A stretch of 64,000 nt of DNA from Myxococcota bacterium (GTDB taxonomy: Bacteria > Myxococcota > B64-G9). Numbering within the stretch: the first letter of the stretch is position 1; each line of letters opens with the position of its first letter. Below, in pieces: positions 782 to 31,165 of this stretch. Position numbers and translations under genes: made by a program. The notes under the pieces are model-generated. The model was given only the letters and a program-made list of their open reading frames with translations. It did no database searches and was not told the origin of the DNA. The stretch is from contig JAKLGA010000003.1 in the NCBI GenBank assembly GCA_022710975.1, positions 124,001 to 188,000 on the forward strand, given 5' to 3'.

Positions 782-1156
782 CTAGGGCGCGAGCAGGGCG
801 TCGACCTCGGCCCGGGTGAGCTCGCTCCAGTCGGGCCGGACGAAGCGCGCCCCGTCCCGCTGGAAGCTCACCCGGTAGAAGCTCTCGGCGTAGCTCTCGA
901 GCTTGGAGCCGGTCTCCGGGCTGTGCTCGACGAACACCAGCTTGTCCGGGTCGAGCCCGCGCTCGGCCGTGAGCCGGGTGGCCAGCTCCGCGCAGAAGTT
1001 GGTCACCGAGGTGCCCGGGTTCTGGTCGAACAGCTCGGTCACCACCAGCACCTGCCGGTCCGGGCGGCGGACGAGCTTCAGCCCGCACAGGCTCGGCACC
1101 TCCCACAGGCCCGGGAAGTGGTACACCTCGTCCACGTACGCGAGGTCGGTCCTCAT
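782..1156 (-). CDS. Conserved-looking 124-residue protein coupled to a B12-radical SAM gene
   Basis: The ATG at 1154-1156 overlaps the stop of the upstream radical SAM gene as ATGA, so translation is coupled and the two products probably act together. The protein begins MRTDLAYVDEVYHFPGLW and has a soluble composition with no signal peptide or membrane segment. It has two Cys, both in the N-terminal half, and I recognise no family. The coupling to a radical SAM enzyme makes an accessory or substrate-binding role plausible, but that is inference from position only. Confidence 0.7.
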   Translation of the reverse strand: MRTDLAYVDEVYHFPGLWEVPSLCGLKLVRRPDRQVLVVTELFDQNPGTSVTNFCAELATRLTAERGLDPDKLVFVEHSPETGSKLESYAESFYRVSFQRDGARFVRPDWSELTRAEVDALLAP

Positions 1157-2442
1157 ACCCCGCGCTCCTCGTCCGTGAGCTCGCGGCCGAAGCTCTGGCG
1201 CACCAGATCGCGCCGGCGGCCCCTGTAGGTGCCGAGCGCCCGCTCGCGCGCCACCGCGCGCTGCAGCAGTTTCATCATCTTCATGCTCTGCGGCTCGTCC
1301 CGGTAGAAGGTCTCCCAGGCCAGGTGGTAGAGCTCCTGCAGCCGGGCCGGGCTCATGTGCTTGGGCTGGAAGACCACCTCGCCGGCCGTGTAGCGATCCC
1401 AGTCGTCGCTCAGGATGCGCTTCTGCTTGCGCAGATCGTCCCGGCACTTGGTGTGCGGGAAGGGGGTCAGCACGGTGAACTCGGCCAGATCCAGATCGAT
1501 CTCCAGCAGGAAGTCGATCAGCCGGCGGATGGAGTCCTCGGTCTGATCGTCCAGGCCGAGCAGGACGGTGCCCTCCACGGCGATGCCGTGGTCGTGGTAG
1601 CGCTTGACCCGCTGCCTGATGAAGTCGGAGGTGTCGAACACCGCCTGGTAGACGTACCAGGCCCCGGCCTGGGCGGCCAGCGCCAGGACCTCGTCGTCGT
1701 CCTCGATGGTGTGGCTGCACCAGGTCTTCTTGAACGGGATCATGGTACGGAACAGCTCCTTCTCCCACTCCTTGTCCTGGGCGAGGGAGTTGTCCACCAC
1801 GAACAGCCGCCCGTTGGGGATGGCGGCCAGCTCCTCGGCCACCCGCGCCATGGGCCGCGGGCGGAAGCTGCGCCCGCCCAGGTAGGCCACCGCGCACGGG
1901 TAGCACTTGAAGCGGCAGCCGCGCGAGGCGTGGAAGAGATCCACCATGCGCACGCCCTTGTGGTGGTACAGCTCGTCCCGGAGGATCGACCGCCGGGCCG
2001 GGCCGACCAGCTCGATGGGCGGGTGGGCCTGCATGAAGTTGTAGACCTTCTGCAGCCGCCCGTGCGCGAGGTCCTCGAGCACCGCGCCGAGCCGGCCCTC
2101 CACCTCGCCCAGGAACAGCGCGTCCGCGTGCGCCAGGGTCTCCTCGGCGTGCAGCATGCTGGCGATGCCGCCGAACAGCACGCGCAGGCCGCGGGCGCGG
2201 AGCTGGTCGGCCAGCGCCCAGCCGCGCTTCACCTGGCTGGTCAGCATCATCGAGATGCACACCAGGTCGCAGCCCTCGCAGGCGGCCAGCGCGTCGCGGG
2301 GATCGACGTTCTCGTCCAGGAAGTCGAGCTCGACCCCGGGCGGGAGCGCGGCCGCCATGACCACCGGGCCGTGGGGCGGGAGGTGGAAGGTGGTCTGGCC
2401 CTCGAGTTTCTTCCAGCGCGGGTAGATCAGCTCGATCTTCAC
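1153..2442 (-). CDS. B12-binding domain radical SAM protein
   Basis: 429 residues from a GTG start. The first ~150 residues read as a cobalamin-binding Rossmann-like domain (LDFLDENVDPRDALAACEG, then ISMMLTSQVKRGWALADQL and VLFGGI). The radical SAM domain follows, with the [4Fe-4S] motif CX3CX2C at C176, C180 and C183 (SRGCRFKCYPC). The C-terminal part fits a TIM-barrel plus helical tail. Family members (B12-rSAM) catalyse methylations and ring rearrangements on many substrates; the substrate here cannot be told. A GAGGAG element lies about 9 bases upstream of the GTG. It is coupled by ATGA to the 124-residue gene downstream. Confidence 0.9.
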   Translation of the reverse strand: MKIELIYPRWKKLEGQTTFHLPPHGPVVMAAALPPGVELDFLDENVDPRDALAACEGCDLVCISMMLTSQVKRGWALADQLRARGLRVLFGGIASMLHAEETLAHADALFLGEVEGRLGAVLEDLAHGRLQKVYNFMQAHPPIELVGPARRSILRDELYHHKGVRMVDLFHASRGCRFKCYPCAVAYLGGRSFRPRPMARVAEELAAIPNGRLFVVDNSLAQDKEWEKELFRTMIPFKKTWCSHTIEDDDEVLALAAQAGAWYVYQAVFDTSDFIRQRVKRYHDHGIAVEGTVLLGLDDQTEDSIRRLIDFLLEIDLDLAEFTVLTPFPHTKCRDDLRKQKRILSDDWDRYTAGEVVFQPKHMSPARLQELYHLAWETFYRDEPQSMKMMKLLQRAVARERALGTYRGRRRDLVRQSFGRELTDEERGV

Positions 2443-7344: not shown

Positions 7345-7394
7345 GGCTCCATCCTGCACCAAGTGGCCCGCCGGGACAATCGCGCCCCGGCGCA

Positions 7395-8165
7395 TCAACG
7401 CGCCTTGCGCAGGAGGAAGGAGGCCACCCGGCAGCCCTCCGGGGCGCGCACGGCGCCCGGTCCGGCCCCGGGGGACAGCTCGTCCGGCCCGAACGGCCGC
7501 GGGCAGTGCACCAGGTGGATCCACTCGTCGCCGGGGGCCTCGTCCAGCTCCACGGCGCCCTCCAGCGGGCCGGTGGAGCCGGCCTGGGCGGGCCGCGAGG
7601 CGGCGCCTGGGCCGAACGGGTGGCAGGGCTCCAGCCGGCCCTGGGCGTCCTGGGCCACCAGCAGCACGTGCCCGGCCACGGGCAGCTCCAGGGTGAAGCG
7701 CAGCCGGTCCCCGGCCTGGAACGAGTCGCCGCTCAGCGCCTCGGCCACCCGCTCCCCGCGCTTGAGGAACACGTTCAGGCCGAGCGAGCCCTTGGCGCGC
7801 ACGACCGGCTCCTGCGGCCCCGGGGGCGGGGACCAGAAGGCGACGGCCAGGAGCACCAGGGCGGCCGCCGCGGCCGCGCCCAGCGCGCCGAAGCGCACCC
7901 ACGAGAGGCTCCACCAGGGGCGGGCCGGCGGCTCCTCGAGCCTCGCCAGGATCCCCGCGAGCAGGCGGTCGGGCCGGGCCTCGGGGAAGGCGGCGAAGCC
8001 CTGGGTGCGCAGCGCCATGCGCTCCGCGCAAACCTCGCACCCCCCGGCGTGCTCCCTGAGCGCTCGCGCCTGCTCAGGCGGGAGCTCCCCGGCGTGCAGC
8101 CGGTCCAGGGTCAGGTCCGAGGGACAGCCCGCAGGCCGTCCGGCGAGGTTTTCCGTGAAGCGCAT
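7395..8165 (-). CDS. Anti-sigma factor, zinc-finger type with periplasmic DUF4384-like domain
   Basis: 256 residues. The N-terminus has the zinc-finger anti-sigma pattern, with LDRLHAGEL followed by HAGGCEVC (HX3CX2C). A single membrane segment (FGALGAAAAAALVLLAVAFW) follows at about 90-110, then a beta-rich periplasmic domain resembling the DUF4384 type (GDRLRFTLELPVAGHVLLVAQD). The gene lies 30 bases downstream of the ECF sigma gene, the usual sigma/anti-sigma order, so it most likely sequesters that sigma factor at the membrane and responds to an envelope signal. The exact class of the sensor domain is uncertain. Confidence 0.8.
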   Translation of the reverse strand: MRFTENLAGRPAGCPSDLTLDRLHAGELPPEQARALREHAGGCEVCAERMALRTQGFAAFPEARPDRLLAGILARLEEPPARPWWSLSWVRFGALGAAAAAALVLLAVAFWSPPPGPQEPVVRAKGSLGLNVFLKRGERVAEALSGDSFQAGDRLRFTLELPVAGHVLLVAQDAQGRLEPCHPFGPGAASRPAQAGSTGPLEGAVELDEAPGDEWIHLVHCPRPFGPDELSPGAGPGAVRAPEGCRVASFLLRKAR

Positions 8166-8195: not shown

Positions 8196-8729
8196 TTAAC
8201 CCGCCGCCCCTGGATCCGGGCAACCACCAGGCTCCGGAGGGGTCCCCGGCGGCGCGGTCAAGGCCTCGGACTGCTTGCGGAATCTATCCAGGAGGTTGCC
8301 GACGGTGCGCCTCGAGACCCCGAGGATCTCGGCCGCCTCCTCGTGGCTCATGCCGTCCACCAGCACGTAGATGGCAGCGGCCGCGCAGCTCTCGTCCACC
8401 ACGGCCAGCACCTTGCGGATCTCGGTCAGGTCCTCGGCGGAGGGCGCGCCCCGGGGGCCGTCGGGCTGGGCGCAGCCGTGCTCCTCCCACAGCTCGCGCC
8501 GCCGGCGGCGGTCGCGGATGCGGTTGAAGCAGTAGTTGGTGGTGATGCGGTAGAGCCAGGTGGTCACCTGGCCGCGCTCCTCCCAGGCCTGGGGGTAGCG
8601 CAGCACCCGGATGAACACCTCCTGGGTGGCCTCGTCCGCGTCGGCCGCGTTGCCCAAGAGGTAGCGCGCCCGGCGGTAGACCGCCGGGGCGTGCTTGGCG
8701 AACAGCTCGGATACCTCGTCGCGCTTCAA
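8196..8729 (-). CDS. ECF-type RNA polymerase sigma factor
   Basis: 177 residues. Region 2 is recognisable (LFAKHAPAVYRRARYLLGNA, then DEATQEVFIRVLRYP and TTWLYRITTNYCFNRIRDRRRR), and region 4 has the helix-turn-helix MSHEEAAEILGVSRRTVGNL. The start is TTG at 8727-8729: a stop lies four codons further upstream and no other start precedes region 2. No clear Shine-Dalgarno is seen. It heads the anti-sigma/caspase/Cys-rich set and probably directs transcription of that set and of itself, though I could not identify its promoter sequence. Confidence 0.88.
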   Translation of the reverse strand: MKRDEVSELFAKHAPAVYRRARYLLGNAADADEATQEVFIRVLRYPQAWEERGQVTTWLYRITTNYCFNRIRDRRRRRELWEEHGCAQPDGPRGAPSAEDLTEIRKVLAVVDESCAAAAIYVLVDGMSHEEAAEILGVSRRTVGNLLDRFRKQSEALTAPPGTPPEPGGCPDPGAAG

Positions 8730-15528: not shown

Positions 15529-15601
15529 GCCTGGAGGCGCTCCCGCCCCGCGCGGCCGCCCGCTTGACTTGCGCCCCGGATGGGGGGCACCTTCCGCCCG
15601 C

Positions 15602-16909
15602 ATGGAGCGGCGCGCCTTCACCCACTGCGGCGTGAGCCTCGGCCAGGTGCACGCCCTGGCCGGCCGCCTGCGAGCCGAGCTGGGGTCGGCCGCGGGGCCC
15701 GTGTGCCTGGCCAGCCAGGATCGGCCCGTGGTGGCGGCCGCGCTGCTGTGCGCGCTGGCCGGCGGCCCGCCGCTGGTCCTGCCCCACGCGCTCTCGGCCC
15801 GGGTGCTGGCGGAGGCGCGCGAGGCCACCGGCTGCGGCCTGGCGCTGGTCGCCGGCGACGAGGTGGAGCTGCCCGACGGCGTGCAGGCCGTGCCGGCCGC
15901 GCTCGGTCCGGAGCCCCCGGCCGACACCCCGGCGCCCGCGCGCGCGCGGGCCGAGGACGAGGTGTTCCTGTCGCTGTTCACCGGCGGCTCGACCGGCCGG
16001 CCCCGGCTGTGGCCCAAGAGCCCGCGCGCCCTGCTCGGGGAGGCGGCCGCCCTGGTCCGGCGCTTCGGCTTCGGCCCCGCGGATCTGGTGCTCGCCACCG
16101 TGTCGCCGCTGCACATCTACGGCCTGCTGTTCTCGGTGCTGGCCCCGCTGCTGTCCGGGGCGCGGGTGCTGCGCCCCACGGCCTTCCTGCCGGCCGAGAT
16201 CGAGCGGCTGCTCGGTGAGCCCGGCCCGAGCTTGCTGGTCGGCGCGCCGGCCCACTACCGCGCGCTGCAGGCCGCCCGCCCGCGCGGCCCGCGCCTGCGG
16301 CTGGCCTTCTCCTCCGGGGGCATGCTGGACCCGGCCGACGGGGACCACTTCTCCCGCGCCTCGGGCGTGTCGGTGGTGGAGGTGTACGGCTCCACCGAGA
16401 CCGGCGGGGTGGCCACCCGCGACCGCCTGCGCGGGGAGCAGGACTGGACCCCGGCCGAGGGGGTGCGGCTGGGCTTCGCCGACGAGCGCCTGGCGGTGGA
16501 CTCGCCCTTCCTCTCGCCCGGCCTGCCGCGCCAGGCCGACGGGCTGTTCCTCACCGGCGACCGGGCCGCGCCCGCGCCGGGCGGGCGCTTCGCGCTGCTC
16601 GGGCGGGTGGACGGGATCGTCAAGGTGGCCGGGAAACGCGTGGACCTGGCCGAGGTGGAGCAGAAGCTCGGCGCGCTGCCCGGGGTGCGGGAGGCGGCGG
16701 TCCTGGCCGCCGAGGCCACGGGCGGCCGGGAGCACGAGATCCTCGCGCTGTACGCGGGCACGGCCGAGCCCGAGGCGGTGCGCGCCATGCTCGCCCAGCG
16801 CGTGGAGCCCCAGGCCCTGCCCCGGCGGATCCTGCGGGTCGACGCCATCCCGCTCACCCCGTCCGGCAAGCGCGATCGCCGGGCCCTCGAGACCCTGCTG
16901 AAGGGCTGA
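15602..16909 (+). CDS. AMP-dependent acyl/aryl ligase of the ketosynthase cluster
   Basis: 435 residues from ATG 15602. Core ANL motifs are present: the phosphate loop FTGGSTGRP (126-134), the A5 motif VYGSTETGG, the hinge and A8 region LLGRVDGIVKVAGKRVDLAEVE, and the A10 Lys motif PLTPSGKRDRRAL. It is short for the family (500+ residues are usual) because the N-terminal part is reduced, as in ligases of aryl polyene-type clusters. It would activate a carboxylic acid as the acyl-adenylate and pass it to the ACP or CoA; the substrate is not predictable by eye. It faces the minus-strand cluster tail to tail, with no bases between the two stop codons. Confidence 0.85.
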   Translation: MERRAFTHCGVSLGQVHALAGRLRAELGSAAGPVCLASQDRPVVAAALLCALAGGPPLVLPHALSARVLAEAREATGCGLALVAGDEVELPDGVQAVPAALGPEPPADTPAPARARAEDEVFLSLFTGGSTGRPRLWPKSPRALLGEAAALVRRFGFGPADLVLATVSPLHIYGLLFSVLAPLLSGARVLRPTAFLPAEIERLLGEPGPSLLVGAPAHYRALQAARPRGPRLRLAFSSGGMLDPADGDHFSRASGVSVVEVYGSTETGGVATRDRLRGEQDWTPAEGVRLGFADERLAVDSPFLSPGLPRQADGLFLTGDRAAPAPGGRFALLGRVDGIVKVAGKRVDLAEVEQKLGALPGVREAAVLAAEATGGREHEILALYAGTAEPEAVRAMLAQRVEPQALPRRILRVDAIPLTPSGKRDRRALETLLKG

Positions 16910-17689
16910 CTACAAGATCCTGCCCGACAGCCAGCCGGTGGCCACCACCACCCCGCCGGCCTGGAGCAGCGCGGGCGCGATCTCGGGGTCGGCCACCAGA
17001 TCCACCGTCCCGCCCAGCGTCTCGAGCAGCGCCCACACGAACGCGCGCCCGGTCTCCTCGTTGACGCGCCGCTCGACCGCCACGACGTGCCCGGCCAGCA
17101 GCGCCATGCTCTCTTCTTCGTCCGACTCGTCAGACCTGTCCGACCTGTCTGACTCGTCGGACTCCTCCCGGAACAGCCCCAGCGGGATGAAGGCCCGTGA
17201 GGCCAGCCGGACCTCGTCCTGCGGCCGGGCCTCGAAGGCCTCGAGCCCGGGGTAGACCTGCAGCTCGTGGGCGAAGAGCGCGAGCTGCACGTCGACCCGC
17301 GCGGGCAGCCTCCGGCCCGCCTGGCGGGCCGCGTCCGGGCAGTCGAACACGAACGGGTAGAGCCCGTCCTGGCTGTCGGCCAGGGCCTCGGGCGCGACCG
17401 CCCAGGCGTGGAAGGCGCCGTCCAGCGGGCTGTCGCCCTCCCGCGCCAGCTCCCGGGTCAGGACCGCCGGCATCCGCCCCCGCCCGTCCAGGTGGGGGTT
17501 CATGCCGACCAGCTCCTGCTCGGCGGAGATCTGCGCCCACAGCTCGGCGCCGCACGGCAGGCGCCAGTGCAGGTAGGCCCCGCGCTCGGACTCGACCAGC
17601 GCGCCCTCCTCGTCGGCGCGCGCGGCCAGGTCCACGAACTCCTCCTCGCTCTCCGCGTCGAACCCGATGCTGGTCAGGTGGCTGGCCAT
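16910..17689 (-). CDS. Hypothetical protein ending the ketosynthase cluster
   Basis: 259 residues. Its ATG at 17687-17689 lies inside the end of the dehydratase-PPTase gene (16-base overlap), so it belongs to the same transcript. It is acidic, with no signal peptide or membrane segment. Around residues 175-190 is a Ser-Asp/Glu-Arg tract encoded by a short tandem DNA repeat. The N-terminus (MASHLTSIGFDAESEEEFVD) resembles small cytosolic proteins of unknown function; I recognise no domain. It could be a structural partner of the biosynthetic enzymes or unrelated; position is the only evidence. Confidence 0.7.
   Translation of the reverse strand: MASHLTSIGFDAESEEEFVDLAARADEEGALVESERGAYLHWRLPCGAELWAQISAEQELVGMNPHLDGRGRMPAVLTRELAREGDSPLDGAFHAWAVAPEALADSQDGLYPFVFDCPDAARQAGRRLPARVDVQLALFAHELQVYPGLEAFEARPQDEVRLASRAFIPLGLFREESDESDRSDRSDESDEEESMALLAGHVVAVERRVNEETGRAFVWALLETLGGTVDLVADPEIAPALLQAGGVVVATGWLSGRIL
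17121..17165. repeat. Five 9-base tandem units encoding an acidic Ser/Asp tract
   Basis: The units TCCGACTCG, TCAGACCTG, TCCGACCTG, TCTGACTCG and TCGGACTCC follow one another. On the coding (minus) strand they give a Ser-Asp-Glu/Arg tract in the hypothetical protein. Because 9 is a multiple of 3, copy-number change would alter linker length without shifting frame. Confidence 0.7.
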
Positions 17690-19188
17690 GGGATCTCCTC
17701 CCCCAGGACGAGCAGGGCGAACACGTGCCCGTCCAGCTCGGCCACGCGCGCCTCGCACTCCAGGGCCGGCTCCGCGATGCGCAGCGCCACGCGCTCCGCC
17801 CCGAGGGCCGTGACGCGCACCCGCGCGAGCGCGCCGCCCAGGCCGAAACCGCAGGCCTTGGCCGCGGCCTCCTTGGCGCACCAGGCGCGGGTGGCCGCCG
17901 GCAGCTCCCCGAGCGGGCTCGCCGCCACCAGGGCGGCCTCGGCCTCGTCCAGGTACATGCGCCGGGTGGACAGCACCCGCGGGGCCATGCGCTCCACGTC
18001 CACGCCCAGCCGCCGCCCGTCCGCCGCGGCCACGGCGAAGCGGTCGTCGTGCGCCGCCGAGACCGGGCCGGCGAAGCCCGGGGCCGCGGGCAGCACCCCG
18101 TCGGGCGCGCTGGTCTCCAGGGCCGCGGGCGGGGAGGCGCGATCGCCGGTGAGCCGCCGCCCGAGCAGCTTCAGCGCCAGGCGCGCGCCCAGGAACGAGC
18201 GCCGGCGCCGGAGGCCCTGGCCCTCGAGGCGGGTCCGCTCGACCAGGGTGAGCGCACGGGTCACGGCCGGGCAGACCGCGTCCAGCTCGAGCACGACCAG
18301 CTCGCGGCAGCCCGCGCGGAGCGCGGCCAGCGGCTCGCCCGCCCGGACCTGCACCCAGCCGGCCGCCTGCATCCGCCCCCGGGACACGTCCTGCATGCCG
18401 AGGCCCAGGCAGGCCTCGCGCGGCGCGCCGCCGTCGTCGAAGAGCCACAGGTCGAACAGCAGCTTCTCGCCCTCCCGGCCGGTCGGGAACACCCGGCAGG
18501 ACACCTGCTCGCCCGGCCGGATCGGCTCGAGCACGCGGCGCTCGGCGTAGCCCGTGGGGAACGCGAGGGTCGCCGCGTAGCGCTGGCCCCAGGCGCAGGC
18601 CAGGTGGAAGGCCGCGTCCAGCGGGAAGGGCGAGCCGAGGGGCCCGGGCGGCGCAGGGTGGTCCGCGGCCACGAGCCGCCCGAGCGCGCCCGCCTCGCTC
18701 AGCCACACCGTGCCCTGCGCGTTGTGGAAGCTCGGCCCGAAGGGGACGAGGTCCGCGTACAGCCTCTCGGCCGGGAAGGAGCAGCCGGGCCCCGGCAGGC
18801 AGGCCAGCTCGTCGAGGGGCGGGATCGCCACCGGCGAGGTCCCGCCCCCCGGCGCGAAGGTCACCTCCACGTGGGTGCGCGCCCGGGCGAGGCCGGCCCG
18901 GCCCGCGGCCTGGCGGGTGACCAGGCGGGCCACCAGCGCGCCGCCCTCCAGCCGCTCGAGCTGCACCTCGGCCTCCACGGGAGAGCGGTCCGCGGGCGTC
19001 TCCAGGAAGCGCAGGAAGCGGGCCGCGCGCGAGGCGCCGACGTCCAGCCCGGGCTCCGCCTCGGCCGCCACCCGGGCCAGCAGCTGCAGCGCCTCCACGG
19101 CCGGCAGCACGGAGCGGCCCTCGGCGCGGTGGTCGGCCAGGTAGGCCGGGTTCTGGATGCGGACCGGGATGGCGCGCGCCGGGCTCAC
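17674..19188 (-). CDS. Fused polyketide-type dehydratase (PS-DH) and 4'-phosphopantetheinyl transferase
   Basis: 504 residues from a GTG (19186-19188) overlapping the thioesterase stop as GTGA. The N-terminal ~270 residues form a double-hotdog dehydratase with both catalytic motifs: HRAEGRSVLP (HX3GX4P, H20) and DAAFH (DX3H, D191 and H195). After a linker, residues ~360-504 are a Sfp/AcpS-type transferase with GVDVE (D397, E399) and WCAKEAAAKACGFG (K/E motif 438-444). One protein would thus both dehydrate beta-hydroxyacyl-ACP and install the phosphopantetheine arm on the ACP. Both halves look intact. The next gene starts inside its 3' end. Confidence 0.88.
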   Translation of the reverse strand: MSPARAIPVRIQNPAYLADHRAEGRSVLPAVEALQLLARVAAEAEPGLDVGASRAARFLRFLETPADRSPVEAEVQLERLEGGALVARLVTRQAAGRAGLARARTHVEVTFAPGGGTSPVAIPPLDELACLPGPGCSFPAERLYADLVPFGPSFHNAQGTVWLSEAGALGRLVAADHPAPPGPLGSPFPLDAAFHLACAWGQRYAATLAFPTGYAERRVLEPIRPGEQVSCRVFPTGREGEKLLFDLWLFDDGGAPREACLGLGMQDVSRGRMQAAGWVQVRAGEPLAALRAGCRELVVLELDAVCPAVTRALTLVERTRLEGQGLRRRRSFLGARLALKLLGRRLTGDRASPPAALETSAPDGVLPAAPGFAGPVSAAHDDRFAVAAADGRRLGVDVERMAPRVLSTRRMYLDEAEAALVAASPLGELPAATRAWCAKEAAAKACGFGLGGALARVRVTALGAERVALRIAEPALECEARVAELDGHVFALLVLGEEIPWPAT

Positions 19189-19664
19189 TTGGGGAAGTTC
19201 TGCCAGGTGGCCACGGTGATCGGATCCACGGCCACCACCTGGCCCCTGGGGTTCAGGGCGCAGTGGCGGGTGTGGCCCCGGCATACCAGGCAGCCCGACT
19301 CGGCGTGGGTGATCACGTAGTCGAACCGGATGCGCACCCGGTCGATGTCGCCGGTGCGCGTGTGGACGAGGAAGGGATCGTCGTAGCGCAGCGGCTGGAA
19401 GTACTGCACGCCCAGATCGAAGATCGGGTAGACGAAGCCCGAGGCCTCCACCTGGGCGTAGGGGAAGCCCACGTCGCGCATCAGGTTGGCCCGGCCGTAC
19501 TCGAAGTAGCGCAGGTAGTTGGCGTGGTAGACGATGTTCGAGCGGTCCGTGTCGGCGTACAGCACCCGGCTGGCCGCGCGGTTGTACACCAGCCCCGAGA
19601 CGCGATCGCGCACGAAGCGCGGGTCCCCCTCCAGCGGCGCGGGCTCGAACTTGGGCTGGCGCAT
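19185..19664 (-). CDS. 4HBT-type acyl thioesterase
   Basis: 159 residues with a single hotdog fold. The family signature is clear at residues ~33-58: RVLYADTDRSNIVYHANYLRYFEYGR, with the Asp expected for 4-hydroxybenzoyl-CoA-type thioesterases (DTD). An ACP- or CoA-thioester hydrolase releasing the finished chain is the natural role here. The start codon ATG is at 19662-19664, 20 bases after the ketosynthase stop; its own stop overlaps the GTG of the dehydratase-PPTase gene. Confidence 0.85.
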   Translation of the reverse strand: MRQPKFEPAPLEGDPRFVRDRVSGLVYNRAASRVLYADTDRSNIVYHANYLRYFEYGRANLMRDVGFPYAQVEASGFVYPIFDLGVQYFQPLRYDDPFLVHTRTGDIDRVRIRFDYVITHAESGCLVCRGHTRHCALNPRGQVVAVDPITVATWQNFPK

Positions 19665-19683: not shown

Positions 19684-20949
19684 TCAGGTCGCCCGGAACA
19701 GCACGCAGCAGTTCGTGCCGCCGAAGCCGAAGGAGTTGGACAGCGCGATCTCCACCCGCGCCCGGCGGGCCTGGTTGGGCACCACGTCGAGATCGCCGAG
19801 CTCCGGATCCGGGAGGTAGTTGATGGTCGGCAGCAGCACGCCCCGCCGCATGCCCTCGATGGTCAGCGCGGCCTCGATGGCCGCCGAGGCGCCCAGCGTA
19901 TGGCCGAGCTGCGACTTGTTGGAGGACACCGGGATGCGCCCGAGCGCCGGGCCGAACACCTCGCGCAGGCAGGCCACCTCGCAGGCGTCCCCGCGCGGGG
20001 TCGAGGTGCCGTGGGCGTTGACGTACTGCACGTCGCCGGGCTGCAGGCCCGCGTCCGCCAGCGCCTCGCGCATGGCGCGCTGGATGGTGGGCGGGTTCGG
20101 CTTGGTGAAGTGGTTGGCGTCGGAGGTCCAGCCGACGCCCAGCACCTCGGCCCGGGCCTCGAGCCCGTGGGCCCGCACGCACTCCTCGGCCGCCAGCACC
20201 AGCGCGCCCGCGCCCTCGCTCAGCACGAAGCCCTTGCGGTCGCGCGAGAAGGGCCGCGAGGCCTGCGCGGGATCGTCGCAGGCCCGGTCGCCGGGCTTGA
20301 CCTTGATGGTGGCGCCCATGTTGTCGAAGCCGTGGATGATCTCGGGCAGGATGGCGGCGTCGGCCCCGCCCACCAGGGCGAAGTCCAGGTCGCCGTCGCG
20401 GATCAGCCGCGCGGCCAGCCCGATGGCGTGGTTGCCGGAGGCGCAGGCGCCCTGGGGCGAGAAGCTCACCCCGGTGAAGCCGAGCAGCATGCCCGCCTTG
20501 CCGCCCGGCAGGTTGCCGCACAGGTTGGGCAGCAGGTAGGGGCTGACCTTGAGCGGCCCGTGCTCGGCCAGGCTGTGGACCGCGGCGCGGTAGGCGTCGT
20601 GCCCGTTGAGCGCCGAGCCCATCAGGCAGGCCGTGCGCGGGGCGACCGCGGGCGTCATCTCGAGCCGCGCGTCCCGCAGCGCCTCCTGGCACACGGCCAT
20701 GGTCATCAGCACCACGGCGGCGTTCCAGTTGTAGGCCTCCTTCTCCGTGGCGAAGTCGAGCTGGCCGAGATCCCAGTCGGGGATCTCCCCCACCACGTCG
20801 CAGGCGGAGTCGACCCGGCAGCGGGTCACCCGGCGGAAGCCGGCCTGGCCGGCCAGGGACCGCTCGAAGGTCGTCGCGAAGCGCATCCCCAGCGGGGTGG
20901 CCGCCCCGTAGCCGATCACGAACACCCGCCGGTTGCTGGGAGCCCGCAT
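19684..20949 (-). CDS. Beta-ketoacyl-ACP synthase (KAS II-like), first of a pair
   Basis: 421 residues with a thiolase-fold ketosynthase pattern. The catalytic triad is complete: C169 in QGACASGNHA, H313 in NAHGTSTPRGD and H350 in NKSQLGHTLGAS, with K345. The C-terminus has the usual NSFGFGGTN loop. It therefore should be an active condensing enzyme, not a chain-length factor. It lies nine bases after the second ketosynthase gene. The region around the active Cys (PQGACASGNHA) differs from typical FabF (TACA), suggesting an unusual acyl pocket. GAGGTG precedes the ATG. Confidence 0.92.
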   Translation of the reverse strand: MRAPSNRRVFVIGYGAATPLGMRFATTFERSLAGQAGFRRVTRCRVDSACDVVGEIPDWDLGQLDFATEKEAYNWNAAVVLMTMAVCQEALRDARLEMTPAVAPRTACLMGSALNGHDAYRAAVHSLAEHGPLKVSPYLLPNLCGNLPGGKAGMLLGFTGVSFSPQGACASGNHAIGLAARLIRDGDLDFALVGGADAAILPEIIHGFDNMGATIKVKPGDRACDDPAQASRPFSRDRKGFVLSEGAGALVLAAEECVRAHGLEARAEVLGVGWTSDANHFTKPNPPTIQRAMREALADAGLQPGDVQYVNAHGTSTPRGDACEVACLREVFGPALGRIPVSSNKSQLGHTLGASAAIEAALTIEGMRRGVLLPTINYLPDPELGDLDVVPNQARRARVEIALSNSFGFGGTNCCVLFRAT

Positions 20950-20958
20950 CCCGTCACC

Positions 20959-22209
20959 TCACTCGAGCCGCCCGAGCACCAGGCAGGCGTTGCAGCCACC
21001 GAAACCGAAGGCGTTCTTCAGCACGTGCCGCTGCGGGTGGGGGCGGGCCTGCTCCACCAGGCTCACCAGCCCCAGCTCGGGGTCGGGCGTGTGGTTGAGG
21101 GTCGGCGGCAGCTCGCCGCGCAGCAGGCCCTCCACGGCCAGCACCGTCTCGATGGCCGAGGCGGCGCCCATGGCGTGGCCGAGCAGCGACTTGTTGGCGG
21201 TCACCGGCGGGGGCCGGGCGCCGAACACGGCGCGCAGGGCCTCGGCCTCGACCGCGTCGCCGGCCTTGGTCGAGGTGGCGTGGGCGTTGACTGCGTCGAT
21301 GTCCCCGGGCGCCAGCCCGGCGCTCTCGATGGCCAGCCGCATGGCCCGCTCCACGGTGGGCAGGTGCGGGGCCACGAAGTGGTGGGCGTCGGAGGTCTGC
21401 CCGTAGCCCGCGAGCTCCACGCGGGGGTGCAGCCCGTGCGCCCGGGCGAAGTCCGCGCTCGCGAGCACCAGCGCCGCGGCGCCCTCGGACACCACGAAGC
21501 CCCGCCGATCCACGGAGAAGGGCCGGCTGACCCGGGCCGGGTCCTCGCTGGCGCCGCCGGCCGGCCGCTTGGCCGCGCCGTTCATGGTGGCGAAGCCGGC
21601 CACGATGGGCTCCACCAGGCAGAAGTCGACCGCCCCGCACACGGCCACGTCCGCCTGGCCCGAGGCGATCAGCATGGCGCCCACGATGAGCGAGCTGCAG
21701 CCCGTGGCGCAGGCGGAGACGGTGGACACGATCGGCCCGGTGGCGCCGGTCAGCATGCTGACCTTGCCGCCCACCATGTTGATGCAGGAGTTCGGGTTGA
21801 CGAACGGGTGGGGCAGCTTGCGCTCGGCGATCATGCGCCGATCCGCGGCCAGCACCGCGTCCAGCCCGCCCACGGCCGAGGAGAACGTGGTGGCCACCCG
21901 CGGCGCGAGGGACGGGGTGATCTCCAGCCCGGCCCGCGCCAGCGCCCGGTGCACCACCAGCAGCGCGTGCGGGAAGATGGGCGAGGTCCAGTGGGCCATG
22001 GCCCGGGGCCTGAGGAACTCGTACGGCCCGGCGTCGAGCTCCGGGACCTGGCCCGCCACGTCGACCGGGAAGGCCTCGTCCAGGGGGAAGCGCGTCAGCC
22101 GCCCCACCCCGCTCTGGCCGGCCAGCGCCCGCCGCCACTGGTCCTCGAGCTCGGTCCCCAGCGGAGACACGAGGTCATGACCCAGCAGGACTGGCTTGGC
22201 CTGCGCCAT
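20959..22209 (-). CDS. Beta-ketoacyl-ACP synthase (KAS II-like), second of a pair
   Basis: 416 residues. The triad is C167 (VSACATGCSS), H310 (NAHATSTKAGD) and H345 (NKSLLGHAMGAA), with K340, so it is catalytically complete. The closing loop NAFGFGGCN is present. It is clearly a paralog of the neighbouring ketosynthase but with a FabF-like active-site context. Two active ketosynthases without a Cys-less partner differ from classical type II PKS (KS plus chain-length factor). It follows the first radical SAM gene by nine bases. Confidence 0.92.
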   Translation of the reverse strand: MAQAKPVLLGHDLVSPLGTELEDQWRRALAGQSGVGRLTRFPLDEAFPVDVAGQVPELDAGPYEFLRPRAMAHWTSPIFPHALLVVHRALARAGLEITPSLAPRVATTFSSAVGGLDAVLAADRRMIAERKLPHPFVNPNSCINMVGGKVSMLTGATGPIVSTVSACATGCSSLIVGAMLIASGQADVAVCGAVDFCLVEPIVAGFATMNGAAKRPAGGASEDPARVSRPFSVDRRGFVVSEGAAALVLASADFARAHGLHPRVELAGYGQTSDAHHFVAPHLPTVERAMRLAIESAGLAPGDIDAVNAHATSTKAGDAVEAEALRAVFGARPPPVTANKSLLGHAMGAASAIETVLAVEGLLRGELPPTLNHTPDPELGLVSLVEQARPHPQRHVLKNAFGFGGCNACLVLGRLE

Positions 22210-22218
22210 GGGATGCGC

Positions 22219-23217
22219 TCACCAGGGCAGGAAACGGTACAGCTTGGCGAACATCTCGTAGACCGTGATCCAGTTCTGCAGGTCCTGGGTCGAGCGCAGG
22301 TGCTCGCGCTTGTTGACCATCACCCAGCTCATGTGCGCCGCGCCGTCCATGCAGGTGGTGCAGTCGCGCGTGGCGGAGGTGCAGCAGCGGTGCATGGTCT
22401 TCAGATCCGCGGCCCAGCGGATGAAGCGGATGAGCCGCCGGGGCTGGGGCGAGCGCGTGTCCATGGGCTCGGTGACCGAGGGGCACTCCTGCCAGCCGAA
22501 CCTGCGGCCCATCATGATCCGGGTGGTGAGCACCTCGTGGTAGTAGCGGCTGGAGATGACGCTGCGGGGGTAACGCTCCAGCGCAGCGTCCATCTCGTCG
22601 CGCACCTGGGCGAGCTGCGCCTCGGTCCAGCTGAAGCCGTCCACGCCCTCGTCGTTGGACAGCAGCTGCATGTGGACCTTCAGGCCCACGTCGTCGATGC
22701 GCTTCACCACCTCCCCGAGCCGGCCGAGCTGGCGCGGGGTGATGGTGTAGAGGTAGTAGGTGTACGGGTCGCCGGCGTAGTTCTTGCTGGAGACGGCGAA
22801 GGTGTCCCGGCCGCGCAGCTTCTTCTCCGTCTCCGGGTCACCCCACAGGGAGATGCCCACCATCATGTCCGGGAAGCGATCGCGGGGCACCTTGATCTGC
22901 CCGTTCGTGGCGCAGTAGGTCGGCAGGCGCTTGTAGAACGCCTCGATGCGGTCCATGTACAGGGTGGGCTCGCCGCCGATCAGGATGGCCAGGTTGACCC
23001 CGCGCTCCCGCTCGCGCTCGATGAACTCGACCCAGCGGGCGGGATCCTTCTCCTCCCGGGCCGCCTTGTGCTCGTCGGAGGAGAAGAAGAAGCAGCCCTT
23101 GCAGCGCAGGTTGCAGCGGTCGGTGACGTCGTAGATGGAGCTGCGGATGTTGAGGCGCGAGATGCGCTTGTAGCGCTCGTACCATTCGTCATCCAGCAAC
23201 GAACGGACCGTGTTCAT
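22219..23217 (-). CDS. Radical SAM protein with C-terminal second Cys cluster (paralog 1)
   Basis: 332 residues. The cluster motif CX3CX2C is C35-C39-C42 (DRCNLRCKGCFFF), GGEP follows at 81-84 and ISLWGD at 122-127. A second Cys group near the C-terminus (C245, then C278, C279, C286 and C289; pattern CC-x6-C-x2-C) suggests an auxiliary Fe-S site as in SPASM or Twitch proteins. It matches the next protein along its whole length. The substrate may be an ACP-bound acyl chain given the cluster, but that is inference. It lies nine bases before the ketosynthase gene. Confidence 0.9.
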   Translation of the reverse strand: MNTVRSLLDDEWYERYKRISRLNIRSSIYDVTDRCNLRCKGCFFFSSDEHKAAREEKDPARWVEFIERERERGVNLAILIGGEPTLYMDRIEAFYKRLPTYCATNGQIKVPRDRFPDMMVGISLWGDPETEKKLRGRDTFAVSSKNYAGDPYTYYLYTITPRQLGRLGEVVKRIDDVGLKVHMQLLSNDEGVDGFSWTEAQLAQVRDEMDAALERYPRSVISSRYYHEVLTTRIMMGRRFGWQECPSVTEPMDTRSPQPRRLIRFIRWAADLKTMHRCCTSATRDCTTCMDGAAHMSWVMVNKREHLRSTQDLQNWITVYEMFAKLYRFLPW

Positions 23218-23248
23218 CGGATCGCCTCTCCTCGGCGGGCATCGCGCC

Positions 23249-24433
23249 TCAGCTCGGGCGGACGCTCTCTCCCGGGGGCGCCACCAGGTGCCGGCACAGG
23301 TTCTGGCCCTTGTCGTAGCCGGTGACCCAGACCGCCAGGTAGGTGTCCACGTAGTCCAGCCAGGCGCGGAAGGTGTCGGGATCGGTCGCGTGCCGGTGCA
23401 GCCGGGCGGTGACCACCGCCGAGCCGGAGGCGTAGTGCCGGCAGTCGGCGCAGTCGGTGTCCGGCACGCAGCAGGCCGCGCTGCGGTCCCAGTTCAGATC
23501 GGTGCGGTACTGGCGGAAGGAGCGTCCCAGGCCGATGTCCGTGGACGGGTTCATGCGCGGGTAGGAGCAGCCGAACAGGTCGTGCAGCCCCTTCGCGTGC
23601 GTGTGCGCCACGGCGCTGTAGGTGGAGAACAGCACGGCCCCGGGGTGGGCGTCGAGCAGCTCCAGCATCATCCGGCGCGTGGCCAGCAGGCTGTCCGGGG
23701 TGTGGGTCAGCCCGCCCTGGTGCCCGACGGGCGCCGAGAACATGTTGAAGGTGACCTTGCAGCCGGCGGCCGCCAGGCGCGCGACCACCCCGCGCGCCTC
23801 CTCGACGTTCTGGCGGGTGAAGGTGTACACGAACACCGCGCGCGTGTCCCCGGCGTAGTTGTCCATCTGGCGAGACAGCAGCGCCCGGGCCCGGCGCACC
23901 CGCGCGCTGGTCTGGTCGTCGCCCCACACCGAGATGTGCAGCTTGTAGCCCACCGAGGCGGGGATCCGGCGAACGCCGTTGGTGGCGATGCAGCCCAGCG
24001 GCTGCTCCTGGTGGCACACCTCGAGCAGCTCCGGCACCAGGGCCGGCTCGGCCCCGGCCAGCACCACGAAGGTGATGCCCCGCGCCCGCTCGGCCCGCAT
24101 CAGCGCCCGCCAGGCCTCGGGCGAGCCGTTCTCGTGGGCGTGCTGCTTCTCGCCCTCGAAGTAGTAGCAGCCCTCGCAGCGGATGTTGCAGCGGTTGGAC
24201 ATGTCGTAGGTGGACTCGCGCAGGAAGAAGAACTTGCGCACCCGCTCCCAGCGGGCGGCCACCTGGGGATCCTGGAGCAGCTCGGTGAACTTCCACCTGC
24301 GGGCCGGCCGGACCGGCTGGACCGGCTGGACGAGCTGCAGCGGACGCACGGGCGCGGCCTCGCGCGCGGGCGCGGGCTGCGCCAGCGGGACGAACTCGGG
24401 CACGTGCCTGCTCGTCTGACCCAGCTTGGACAT
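23249..24433 (-). CDS. Radical SAM protein with C-terminal second Cys cluster (paralog 2)
   Basis: 394 residues from ATG 24431-24433 with GGAGG five bases upstream. A Pro/Val/Gln-rich N-terminal tail (~1-45) precedes the core. The [4Fe-4S] motif is C82-C86-C89 (NRCNIRCEGCYYF). The SAM-binding GGEP is altered to GAEP (127-130); ISVWGD and NYAGD match paralog 1. The C-terminal cluster is C289, then C321, C322, C328 and C331 (CC-x5-C-x2-C). It follows the ACP gene by 22 bases. The altered GGEP may be tolerated or may signal a specialised role. Confidence 0.9.
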   Translation of the reverse strand: MSKLGQTSRHVPEFVPLAQPAPAREAAPVRPLQLVQPVQPVRPARRWKFTELLQDPQVAARWERVRKFFFLRESTYDMSNRCNIRCEGCYYFEGEKQHAHENGSPEAWRALMRAERARGITFVVLAGAEPALVPELLEVCHQEQPLGCIATNGVRRIPASVGYKLHISVWGDDQTSARVRRARALLSRQMDNYAGDTRAVFVYTFTRQNVEEARGVVARLAAAGCKVTFNMFSAPVGHQGGLTHTPDSLLATRRMMLELLDAHPGAVLFSTYSAVAHTHAKGLHDLFGCSYPRMNPSTDIGLGRSFRQYRTDLNWDRSAACCVPDTDCADCRHYASGSAVVTARLHRHATDPDTFRAWLDYVDTYLAVWVTGYDKGQNLCRHLVAPPGESVRPS

Positions 24434-24455: not shown

Positions 24456-24716
24456 TCAGCCCGCCATGCGAGCGTGCACGTACTCCGCGATGAGCCGGAG
24501 GTTCTTGAGCTTCGGGTAGTCGTCCTCGTCGATGGTGATGCCGTACTCGTCCTGGAGCACCAGCACCACGGCCGTCAGGTCCATCGAGTCGATGCCCAGC
24601 TCGTCGACCAGATCCAGGCCGCGATCGAAGGAATCGGCGGTGACGTCCTCCAGCTTGAGCTCGGAGATGATGATCTCTGCCACGCGCTGCTCGACTGCCT
24701 TGATGTCCGGTTTCAC
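24456..24716 (-). CDS. Acyl carrier protein of the ketosynthase cluster
   Basis: 86 residues, acidic and helical, with the phosphopantetheine site Ser at S44 in ELGIDSMDLTAVV. Helix I (IKAVEQRVAEIIISEL) and the loop with D-rich residues fit an AcpP-like four-helix bundle. It leads the gene run that continues with the two radical SAM genes and the ketosynthases, so the pathway intermediates are probably tethered to it. The PPTase domain encoded at 17674-19188 likely modifies it. A GGAGGG ribosome site precedes the ATG. Confidence 0.92.
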   Translation of the reverse strand: MKPDIKAVEQRVAEIIISELKLEDVTADSFDRGLDLVDELGIDSMDLTAVVLVLQDEYGITIDEDDYPKLKNLRLIAEYVHARMAG

Positions 24717-24900: not shown

Positions 24901-25275
24901 TCAAGCCCCAGAAACCATGACGAGCACACCTCTGCCCACATCTTCCTCTCCCTCCCGGAGCTGGAACTCGGCCCGGAGCGAACCTCCGTCCCGGGTGCAC
25001 GCGAGCCGGATCTCCAGCCTGGCCCCGGGGCGGAGCGCTTTCCTGAAGCGCACGCGCTTGAAGCGCTCCGCCGCCCACGCCGCCCTGGGCAGCTCCAGGC
25101 CGCGCAGCACGGCCTCCTCCACCAGGGCCAGCAACCCCAGGCCGGGGAAGATAGGATTTCCCGGGAAGTGCCCATCGAACCAGGGTGAATCCGGCCTGAG
25201 CACCACGTCCGCCTCGACCTGCCCGGGCCCGGGAGAAGCGCAGCCATCCAGGTGCAACCAGGCCTGAGCGTCCAA
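24901..25275 (-). CDS. FabZ/ApeI-like single-hotdog protein
   Basis: 124 residues. I chose the TTG at 25273-25275 because CGAGGTGA sits five bases upstream; a TTG at 25323 would add 16 residues but lacks a ribosome site. The dehydratase-type motif DGHFPGNPIFPG is present (His ~36), placing it with FabZ or the ApeI-type hotdogs of polyene clusters. In FabZ the catalytic Glu follows five residues after PG; here that position is Ala (PGLGLLALVEEA). It may be a non-classical dehydratase, a binding partner, or use another residue. It lies upstream of the ACP gene on the same strand. Confidence 0.78.
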   Translation of the reverse strand: MDAQAWLHLDGCASPGPGQVEADVVLRPDSPWFDGHFPGNPIFPGLGLLALVEEAVLRGLELPRAAWAAERFKRVRFRKALRPGARLEIRLACTRDGGSLRAEFQLREGEEDVGRGVLVMVSGA

Positions 25276-25333
25276 GGGTTCACCTCGCTCGTGCTTCGAC
25301 GGCGACCCGGCCAGCCTCTTCAAGGCGCCCCGG

Positions 25334-29290: not shown

Positions 29291-31165
29291 TCAGAAATCC
29301 ATGATGAACGAGTAGGTGTCCTCGTTGAGCTTGCTCTGCACCTTGAAGCCGCTCTTGTAGAAGACCGCCTGCATGGCCTTGTTCTCGCGCAGCACCTCGG
29401 CGGTGAAGCCGGCGATGCCGTTGCGGCGGGCGACGGTGGCGAGCTGGGCCAGCATGAAGCGGCCGATGCCCCGGCCCTGCCAGCCGTCGCGCACGGTGAA
29501 GGCCACCTCGGCCCGGTTGGTCTTGGGATCGAGGTAGAACCGCCCGATGGCCACGATCATCTCGCCGTGGGCCTCGGGCACGGTGCCCGCCAGGGCCACG
29601 TCGTTGCGGTGGTCCACGTACACGAAGTTCTGCACCTGCTTCTGAGGCAGACGCTTCATGTGGGACATGAAGCGGTAGTAGATGGTCTCGCGCGACAGGG
29701 CGTAGAACAGCTCCTTGTAGGCCTCCTCGTCGGTCGGGCGCATGGCGCGGAAGGTGATCTCCCCGCCGTCGTCGAGCAGCATGCGCGTGCGCGTCTCGGG
29801 CGGCTCGATGCGGATGCGGCCCTCCACGTCCGCCAGCTCGCTGCGCAGGTACTTGTACTCGATGGCCTTGCGCAGCAGCTCTTCGCGGTAGTCCGGGTGG
29901 GCGATGGAGATGAGCGCCAGCGCGCGCTCCTGGACGCTCTTGCCGTGCAGGTAGGCCACCCCGTACTCGGTCACCACGTAGTGCACGTCCCCGCGCGTGG
30001 TGACCACCCCGGCGCCCGGGCTGAGCTGGGCCACGATGCGGGACTTGGTCCCGCGCAGGGCGGTCGAGGCCAGCGCGATGATGGCCTTGCCGTGCTCGGC
30101 GCGGGCCGCGCCGCGGTTGAAGTCCACCTGGCCGCCGATGCCGGAGAAGAAGCGCGTGCCCAGGGAGTCGGCGCACACCTGGCCGGTGAGATCGACCTCG
30201 AGCGCCACGTTGATCGCCACCATGTGCTCGTGCTGCGCGATGCGGAAGGGATCGTTGACGTACTCGGTGGGGTGGAAGGCGAAGGCCGGGTTGTCGTCGA
30301 TGTAGTCGTACAGGCGGCGGGAGCCGGTGCAGAAGGAGGCCACCACCTTGCCGCGGTCGAAGGACTTGCGCGCGCCGGTGATCACCCCGGCCTCGATCAT
30401 GTCCAGGATGGAGTCGTTGAGCATCTCCGTGTGGATGCCGAGGTCCCTCTTGTCCTTCAGGTTCTCGAGCGCGGCGTGCGGGATGCGGCCGATGCCCAGC
30501 TCGAGGGTGGCGCCGTCCTCCACCAGGCCGGCGATGTACATGCCGATGCGCCGGGTGGTCTCGTCCGTCTCGGTCGGCTTGGTCTCCAGCAGCGGCATGT
30601 CCACCGGCACCATGAGGTCGAGATCGTGCACCGACAGCAGGCTGTCGCCGCGGGTGCGCGGCATCTGCGGATTCACCTGGGCGATCACCAGGGAGGCGTT
30701 CTCCGCGGCCGAGCGCACGATGTCGACCGAGATGCCCAGGCTGACCATGCCGCGCGCGTCGGGCGGGGTGACGTGGATGAGCGCCACGTCGATGGGCAGC
30801 CGGCCCGAGCGGAACAGGCGCGGGATGTCGGACAGGAAGATGGGGGTGTAGTCCCCCAGCCCCTCCTGGATGAGGTCGCGCACGTTCTCGTTGATGAAGA
30901 AGGAGTTGACCGAGAAGTGCTGGGTGAGCTCCCGCTGGGCGTAGGGCGCGTCGCCCATGGTCAGCAGGTGCACGATCTTGATGTCCGACAGCTCCGCGGA
31001 GCGGGCGGTCAGCGCCCGCACCAGCGCCAGCGGCTGGGCGCAGCCCGTGCCGATGAACACCCGGTTGCCCGGCCGGATGCGCGCCGCGGCCTCCTCGGGG
31101 GTGGCCAGCAGGTGTCTGTACTTCTCCTGCCAGCCGGGGTCGTAGCTCGGCTTCCTGTCGCTCAC
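29291..31165 (-). CDS. Acyl-CoA hydrolase/transferase fused to a GNAT acetyltransferase
   Basis: 624 residues from a GTG (31163-31165) overlapping the stop of the upstream ligase gene. Residues ~10-450 form the two halves of the 4-hydroxybutyrate/acetyl-CoA transferase family (GTGCAQP, GIGRIPHAALENL, DLGIHTEMLNDSI, FSGIGGQVDFNRGA). Residues ~465-624 form a GNAT domain with the acetyl-CoA loop GWQGRGIGRFML. It would move CoA between acyl groups or hydrolyse acyl-CoA. The fused GNAT could acetylate the adjacent ligases or itself, which would link acyl-CoA level to enzyme control; this is inference. Last gene of the acyl-CoA operon. Confidence 0.9.
   Translation of the reverse strand: MSDRKPSYDPGWQEKYRHLLATPEEAAARIRPGNRVFIGTGCAQPLALVRALTARSAELSDIKIVHLLTMGDAPYAQRELTQHFSVNSFFINENVRDLIQEGLGDYTPIFLSDIPRLFRSGRLPIDVALIHVTPPDARGMVSLGISVDIVRSAAENASLVIAQVNPQMPRTRGDSLLSVHDLDLMVPVDMPLLETKPTETDETTRRIGMYIAGLVEDGATLELGIGRIPHAALENLKDKRDLGIHTEMLNDSILDMIEAGVITGARKSFDRGKVVASFCTGSRRLYDYIDDNPAFAFHPTEYVNDPFRIAQHEHMVAINVALEVDLTGQVCADSLGTRFFSGIGGQVDFNRGAARAEHGKAIIALASTALRGTKSRIVAQLSPGAGVVTTRGDVHYVVTEYGVAYLHGKSVQERALALISIAHPDYREELLRKAIEYKYLRSELADVEGRIRIEPPETRTRMLLDDGGEITFRAMRPTDEEAYKELFYALSRETIYYRFMSHMKRLPQKQVQNFVYVDHRNDVALAGTVPEAHGEMIVAIGRFYLDPKTNRAEVAFTVRDGWQGRGIGRFMLAQLATVARRNGIAGFTAEVLRENKAMQAVFYKSGFKVQSKLNEDTYSFIMDF

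Follow-up and report, generated by a model that had tools for sequence, protein, structure and literature searches.

A 64,000-nucleotide stretch of a Myxococcota genome (GTDB lineage B64-G9; assembly GCA_022710975.1, contig JAKLGA010000003.1, positions 124,001 to 188,000; the whole stretch is called the window here) encodes two neighbouring radical S-adenosylmethionine (SAM) proteins, rSAM1 and rSAM2, within a gene cluster of the fatty acid synthase (FAS) type. They are a real, widespread, conserved and old enzyme pair. The two proteins may be subunits or successive enzymes of one oxidative tailoring step that depends on an acyl carrier protein (ACP) in an anaerobic lipid pathway of the aryl-polyene or ladderane type, a tentative proposal whose probability we put at about 0.42. 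The style of the cluster is already known (lipid-type), and the pair is new relative to the literature found: no paper describing it appeared among titles and abstract openings, a coverage that does not extend to most subscription papers.

The radical SAM pair and its invariant cysteines

The rSAM1 gene lies upstream of rSAM2 on the minus strand, with 31 bp between the two (Table 1). The preliminary description, made from the letters of the window, took them for full-length paralogues with common motifs. Indeed, both open reading frames are present at this place, and the proteins are 28% identical over 328 columns (BLASTP, E = 1e-35). The window copy of rSAM2 contains RCNLRCKGC, GGEP, SLWGD, NYAGD and CC-x6-C-x2-C, and that of rSAM1 RCNIRCEGC, GAEP, SVWGD, NYAGD and CC-x5-C-x2-C; all the motifs named (RCN(L/I)RC(K/E)GC, SxWGD, NYAGD and CC...C..C) are found in both proteins.

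A query alignment of rSAM1 and rSAM2 sequences (five of each) was run against named genomes and detected 342 loci with a gene for a relative. Pairing was counted in the best 80 of them, i.e., the closest relatives, and for the cysteine counts L040 (same genome as L027) and L042 (same genome as L026) were left out as duplicates. Identity to the window copies in the loci kept is 73-80% for rSAM2 and 62-75% for rSAM1. The tail cysteines C245, C278, C279, C286 and C289 of rSAM2 are Cys in 83/83 copies, and C289, C321, C322, C328 and C331 of rSAM1 in 81/81, a conservation far beyond chance. The tail pattern shared by the two window copies is invariant in both families (CC-x6-C-x2-C in all 83 rSAM2, CC-x5-C-x2-C in all 81 rSAM1). 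A further invariant Cys upstream had been missed; the last Cys ahead of CC stands 33 residues upstream in the 83 rSAM2 proteins and 32 (76 proteins) or 27 (five proteins) residues upstream in rSAM1. As this upstream Cys and CC...C..C are all invariant, each tail site has five candidate ligands.

The distinction between GGEP and GAEP, also made from the window copies, extends to the families: every rSAM2 (83/83) has GGEP, and GAEP is present in all 76 rSAM1 proteins reaching the region, the other five being cut before it. The CX3CX2C motif is kept in 83/83 rSAM2 and in 76/81 rSAM1, where the remaining five are cut before the motif. Two further motifs are kept less strictly: SxWG[D/N] was found in 74/83 rSAM2 and 76/81 rSAM1 (the 81 include five cut copies), and the counts for [N/A]YxxD are 73/83 and 77/81, respectively. 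The proline-rich N-terminal tail ascribed to rSAM1 is real in the window copy, but it is absent from four aligned same-family relatives and, not being conserved, had to be rejected as a family feature. Two rSAM1 reading frames richer in proline are very long, and their starts look over-extended. In an AlphaFold2 model, residues 1-23 of rSAM1 have a predicted local distance difference test score (pLDDT) below 50.

Of the best 80 loci, 78 have the two genes on one strand with rSAM1 first; the two loci without rSAM1 (L055, L059) start at a contig end. In the Desulfogranum japonicum family, 29 of 73 genomes gave a match, 23 of them with both genes (adjacent in 22, apart in one) and six with a single one, in every case at a contig end. 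Since genomes carry both genes or neither, save these six, the joint action suggested in the preliminary description is supported. The window genome has a single copy of each gene, and its remaining matches are weak and partial. In the window phylum 5/195 genomes match at E ≤ 1e-40, the window genome included, and all belong to one family; two further loci (L054, L062) are also labelled Myxococcota. By record title, the best 80 loci come mostly from sulfate reducers, Syntrophaceae, Smithella, other Deltaproteobacteria and Spirochaetes, and cultured hosts among the loci include Desulfosarcina widdelii, Desulfogranum japonicum and Desulfatitalea alkaliphila. These host groups are largely anaerobic. 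One contig titled Planctomycetota (L099) has a pair that groups with a deltaproteobacterial one in the rSAM1 tree (97/94) and is possibly mis-binned or transferred.

A lipid-type gene cluster around the pair

The surroundings were compared in 34 full-flank loci (10 kb on each side; the best 80 minus L042 and 45 loci with shorter flanks), in which 27 gene families were tracked around the core. The conserved core comprises an ApeI-like dehydratase, ACP, rSAM1, rSAM2, two ketosynthases (KS1, KS2), a thioesterase (TE) and a polyketide synthase-type dehydratase (PS-DH), and the window has the same order. The FAS-type context noticed in the window, where ACP, dehydratases, ketosynthases and thioesterase surround the pair, thus recurs in the relatives. 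Homologues of ACP, the ApeI-like dehydratase, KS1 and KS2 are encoded in 34/34 loci, those of TE and PS-DH in 33/34, the miss being L065, which is cut by the locus end. Among the tracked families, the order ACP-rSAM1-rSAM2-KS1-KS2 was found in 34/34 (in L065, KS2 follows about 8 kb further on). The ApeI-like gene is directly before that for ACP in 32/34 loci and elsewhere in L062 and L082; in four of the 34, TE and PS-DH are separated by other genes.

Table 1. Genes of the pair, the core cluster and accessory candidates in the window (nt, window numbering)
Feature	Position	Strand	Evidence and remarks
FabA/ApeI-like 3-hydroxyacyl-ACP dehydratase (hotdog), first core gene	24901..25323	-	Pfam FabA 34.5 bits (cut-off 23)
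ACP, 22 bp upstream of rSAM1	24456..24716	-	DSMD pantetheine site; PP-binding 35.4 bits (cut-off 20.8)
rSAM1, radical SAM protein, GAEP	23249..24433	-	394 aa; CX3CX2C (82, 86, 89); tail C289 + CC(321,322)-x5-C328-x2-C331
rSAM2, radical SAM protein, GGEP	22219..23217	-	332 aa; CX3CX2C (35, 39, 42); tail C245 + CC(278,279)-x6-C286-x2-C289
KS1, FabF-like ketosynthase	20959..22209	-	Pfam; Cys-His-His motifs SACATG, NAHATST, NKSLLGH in the window copy
KS2, FabF-like ketosynthase	19684..20949	-	Pfam; Cys-His-His motifs GACASG, NAHGTST, NKSQLGH in the window copy
TE, YbgC/FadM-type 4HBT thioesterase	19185..19664	-	TIGR00051 84.3 bits (cut-off 68.7)
PS-DH, double-hotdog dehydratase fused to phosphopantetheinyl transferase	17674..19284	-	PS-DH 34.6 and ACPS 42.4 bits, both over cut-offs
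AMP-dependent acyl ligase, probably accessory, opposite strand	15569..16909	+	AMP-binding 88.9 bits; relative in 10/34 loci
B12-binding radical SAM protein, distant accessory candidate	1153..2442	-	66% identical to a Desulfosarcina widdelii locus gene

Some assignments in Table 1 need comment. With the ApeI-like model the first dehydratase scored 24.1 bits, under the cut-off of 28.5. The true start of PS-DH is probably near the TE stop, because homology begins at 19164; owing to its fusion to a phosphopantetheinyl transferase, ACP may be activated by an enzyme of the cluster itself. The B12-binding protein remained below the Pfam cut-offs (B12-binding 29.1 vs 32.1 bits, Radical_SAM 21 vs 29.5); its gene may be part of the cluster, from whose core it is separated by about 15-20 kb with unrelated genes between.

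Within the limit set by the 10 kb flanks, accessory families recur in the 34 loci as follows: B12_8 radical SAM (25), polysaccharide deacetylase (22), PlsY (22), FabG (17), DUF3261 (17), KS-KS (17), LolA (16), ApeP (14), two B12 radical SAM families (12 and 10), MMPL (9), CrtI-like (6) and SPASM-type radical SAM (2). This accessory gene set parallels those of the E. coli aryl polyene (APE) and the Kuenenia/Desulfotalea type II FAS (FASII) clusters. With APE clusters, as represented by the apeA-R gene list in the available part of the E. coli paper (PMC8253772), it shares ketosynthases, ApeI/ApeP-type dehydratases, ketoreductase, thioesterase, LolA-like and DUF3261 proteins, an RND/MMPL exporter, an acyltransferase and an acyl-ACP synthetase; the APE-type genes of the window itself are those for the ApeI-like dehydratase, ACP, two ketosynthases and TE. 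Unlike in APE clusters, rSAM1 and rSAM2 belong to the core here, and PlsY, B12 radical SAM and CrtI-like genes are added. The word 'radical' is absent from the text of PMC8253772.

According to the available text of PMC2649909, FASII clusters of Kuenenia (which is credited with four FAS clusters) and Desulfotalea were proposed to make ladderanes or polyunsaturated hydrocarbons, and Desulfotalea psychrophila makes C31:8/C31:9 polyenes; for the 'ladderane' clusters of non-anammox genomes, the product is not known, as stated in the accessible part of PMC9902471. The likeness to these FASII clusters concerns a B12 radical SAM protein (31% identity), a SPASM-type radical SAM protein (44%), CrtI-like, FabG and polysaccharide deacetylase genes and several copies of FabF. 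However, rSAM1 and rSAM2 are absent from a probable Kuenenia genome (G150), where only a relative from a third branch (see below) was found. The G150 cluster, which has the expected gene order, encodes two radical SAM proteins in succession, one 44% identical to a SPASM-type protein from the Desulfogranum locus and the next, of the B12 type, 31% identical to another cluster gene product. The former matches rSAM2 and rSAM1 over 59 and 85 residues only (E about 3e-4), and the best match to rSAM2 in the whole genome is the third-branch protein (E = 1.2e-15), encoded outside the three FAS loci read. The counterpart of the kuste3343-like gene at E ≤ 1e-30 was present in 4/10 genomes, all of Desulfobacterota, and absent in six, viz. 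four of the window's family (the window genome included), a spirochaete and a Syntrophales genome.

Further genes of the window were seen beside or apart from the cluster. A Cys-rich DUF4215 repeat protein of 825 aa is encoded next to it (13051-15528, plus strand). Two minus-strand genes at 29291-33258, which we take to be acetyl-CoA hydrolase-like and acyl-CoA synthetase-like, have relatives (80% and 59% identity) that also flank the cluster in genome G006. On the minus strand there are also a gene for a caspase-domain (Peptidase_C14) protein (5770-8040) and, near it, a candidate sigma factor gene (8196-8729).

Family assignment, fold and outside relatives

Profile searches (Pfam, NCBIfam; E ≤ 0.01) were made with 50 members, comprising rSAM2, rSAM1, Planctomycetota and third-branch sequences. 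All 50 matched the radical SAM core PF04055; of the window copies, rSAM2 scored 34.7 bits against a cut-off of 29.5, and rSAM1, with 24.9 bits, stayed below. rSAM2 also gave a sub-cut-off Pfam match to Fer4_12. The SPASM domain has a seven-cysteine pattern. None of the 50 members, with their five conserved tail cysteines, matched SPASM (PF13186), so that the tail lies outside SPASM as Pfam defines it, in line with the preliminary description. In Twitch proteins a truncated SPASM carries a single auxiliary cluster. The Twitch-type model NF033640 matched 28/50 members by the same E-value limit; the cysteine spacing of the pair differs from the Twitch motif. The Pfam and NCBIfam searches did not point to any named subgroup whose substrate is unrelated, and none of the named NCBIfam radical SAM equivalogs came near its cut-off (best 32.5 bits vs 400 for the window rSAM2, 26.3 vs 325.25 for rSAM1).

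AlphaFold2 models were confident, with a pLDDT of 86.8 (rSAM1) and 90.1 (rSAM2). Their best matches among solved folds are radical SAM enzymes, e.g., SkfB, BlsE, SuiB and anSME, several of which hold auxiliary clusters. For rSAM2, the best were BlsE (7vob; Z 17.5, 3.8 Å over 258 residues) and SkfB (6efn; Z 16.9, 4.0 Å over 238), and for rSAM1 SkfB (Z 17.7, 5.0 Å over 243). The pair thus resembles BlsE and the SPASM/Twitch enzymes (SkfB, CteB, anSME) in fold and in many weak profile matches and differs from SPASM/Twitch enzymes in its five tail cysteines and the unmatched PF13186.

The nearest outside relatives (31-36% identity) come from Planctomycetota. Besides G058, four of the 294 genomes sampled in this phylum carry one rSAM2-like gene at E < 1e-60 (L143:5081-6196, L144:9381-10538, L145:9566-10663, L146:9629-10720) that shares the CC-x6-C-x2-C tail. 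A tree built from 53 sequences, among them rSAM1, rSAM2, Planctomycetota and third-branch ones, shows rSAM1 and rSAM2 as one clade apiece; with the third branch taken as the root, on which this placement depends, rSAM2 groups with the Planctomycetota clade (96/87). Common ancestry of rSAM1 and rSAM2 had rightly been proposed; under the third-branch root, rSAM2 is nearer to the Planctomycetota enzymes than to rSAM1, which makes the duplication old. The third branch (L030:9360-10241, L031:9160-10041, L139:9705-10727) has a related C...C-x5-C-x2-C-G-C tail and occurs in anammox-like genomes as well, outside the FAS loci; its member L139 scored 64.9 bits with the model of PTO1314-type radical SAM proteins, far below the cut-off.

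Proposed function and its alternatives

The pair probably modifies a growing fatty chain. In each protein, the CX3CX2C cluster would cleave SAM to the 5'-deoxyadenosyl radical, while the tail (C...CC-x5/6-C-x2-C) would bind a second Fe-S cluster. A chain carried by the neighbouring ACP would lose a hydrogen to the radical and an electron to the second cluster and would be left oxidised, with a double bond made without oxygen or with a C-C link. KS1 and KS2 would elongate this chain, the ApeI-like dehydratase and PS-DH dehydrate it and the thioesterase release it. Where present, PlsY, acyltransferase, MMPL, LolA and DUF3261 proteins may attach the product to lipid and move it outwards. We infer oxidative tailoring of an ACP-linked chain because ACP is a neighbour in all 34 full-flank loci, because of the number of cysteine ligands, because the hosts are mostly anaerobic and because no oxygen-dependent desaturase was among the recurring cluster families annotated. 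The pairing, the core order, the APE-like accessory families and the matching folds, several of them with auxiliary clusters, also speak for it. So does the distribution of KS2 in four same-family genomes: G002 and G003, which have the pair, possess KS2, and G005 and G008, which are devoid of the pair, lack it (E ≤ 1e-60).

Several observations weigh against this proposal. In genome G002 the pair is located about 12 kb from KS1/KS2 on the same contig, and in G003 KS1/KS2 are on another contig. In G359 (L197:9168-10163 and L198:829-1875) the break in the core falls precisely between rSAM1 and rSAM2, so that the linkage is not absolute and the notion that the two are never apart is disproved: one contig carries ApeI-ACP-rSAM1 followed by other genes, and another rSAM2-KS1-KS2-TE-PS-DH, with 9 kb free of rSAM1 before rSAM2. 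This split may be a misassembly; it leaves the odds of the proposal unchanged, because neither gene is lost and neither half of the core is broken up. Furthermore, the nearest outside relatives adjoin lipoate genes rather than FAS genes, and the fold matches are generic, since Z values of 11 or more were also reached by viperin, MoaA, anSME, NifB and lipoyl synthase; as many radical SAM enzymes score close behind the best, the fold gives the class and not the reaction. Finally, GAEP in all rSAM1 proteins reaching the region implies that rSAM1 may bind SAM differently.

A more far-reaching version of the tailoring proposal, which we consider doubtful, would make rSAM1 and rSAM2 the two halves of a radical SAM synthase, each bearing a new auxiliary cluster of the C...CC-C-C kind. 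The synthase would catalyse oxygen-independent desaturation or form rings or cross-links on ACP-bound chains. Its product would be an unrecognised class of membrane lipids in sulfate reducers, syntrophs, Spirochaetes and Myxococcota, made in parallel to, but distinctly from, the ladderane pathway.

The constancy of GAEP in rSAM1 (76/76) against GGEP in rSAM2 (83/83), together with the higher identity of rSAM2 to the window copy, would also fit a pair in which rSAM2 is the sole catalyst and rSAM1, its clusters retained, serves as a scaffold or in electron transfer. This is rather unlikely, as CX3CX2C is intact in every rSAM1 reaching the region.

The relatives in Planctomycetota bring in a different chemistry, namely C-S bond formation by two components as in LipS1/LipS2, with the tail cluster of each protein consumed and its sulfur put on the ACP-bound chain. 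In all four genomes the rSAM2-like gene directly follows those for LipS1 and LipS2 in clusters of the sulfur/lipoate type; the TusA gene is the next one in three genomes and lies 5 kb further on in the fourth, DsrE is encoded downstream in 4/4, and GcvH-like and Hdr-like genes are present in 3/4. LipS2 scored 201 and 189 bits in two genomes (cut-off 270), the others being 69-70% identical to one of these, and LipS1 scored 219.7 to 234.2 bits, one over the cut-off of 230; a control search for LipS1 in 14 genomes gave nine matches, none over the cut-off. Moreover, the auxiliary cluster of Thermococcus kodakarensis LipS1 is ligated by C230, C276 and C277, i.e., an upstream Cys and an adjacent CC (available text of PMC9585515), so that the pair resembles LipS1/LipS2 in this arrangement as well as in being two cooperating radical SAM proteins. 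Nevertheless, we regard sulfur insertion as quite unlikely. LipS1 adjoins LipS2 in all four genomes, which refutes the idea that the rSAM2 relative replaces it. At E ≤ 0.01, the models for LipS1, LipS2, LipA and BioB, including NF053742 and NF053743 (LipS1/LipS2), were absent from the 16 matches of the window rSAM1 and from the best 25 of 31 matches of rSAM2. The pair differs from LipS1/LipS2 also in its extra C-x2-C and its ACP/KS context. Sulfur donors leave an open site on their auxiliary cluster. The two further invariant cysteines of the pair would fill such a site; the five tail cysteines could fully ligate a cluster, which would suit a role in electron transfer more than one as sulfur donor. 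The 27 gene families followed around the core include no sulfur carrier, although no search there was aimed at one. The FAS and lipoate neighbourhoods taken together, the latter in four related genomes, hint at acyl chains bound to carrier proteins as the common substrate.

It is distinctly improbable that the pair makes the starter unit (e.g., an aromatic acid) of an aryl-polyene-like chain instead of modifying the chain. The accessory genes are APE-like and the AMP ligase resembles 4-coumarate ligase below the cut-off (100.2 vs 334.7 bits), but a relative of the ligase is encoded in 10/34 full-flank loci and the pair in all of them. There is very little to recommend peptide maturases for ribosomally synthesised and post-translationally modified peptides standing in a lipid cluster by chance: SPASM peptide maturases make up many of the weak matches to NCBIfam models and to solved folds, but those NCBIfam matches are all, among the matches listed, far below curated cut-offs, and ACP and ketosynthase genes flank the pair in all 34 loci. 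Least tenable is the identification of the pair with the ladderane genes kuste3342/kuste3343, refuted in the one anammox-type genome G150: accessory families are shared with the Kuenenia-type cluster, but the counterparts there are a B12 and a SPASM-type radical SAM protein.

The route by which strict anaerobes come to polyunsaturated or cyclised lipids is a question linked to ladderanes and, in the available text of PMC2649909, to the C31:8/C31:9 polyenes of Desulfotalea psychrophila. The signatures of rSAM1 and rSAM2 mark clusters that share a step and distinguish them from the single Kuenenia-type genome studied. As the pair is present in cultured organisms, it offers a direct handle for lipidomics and in vitro tests.

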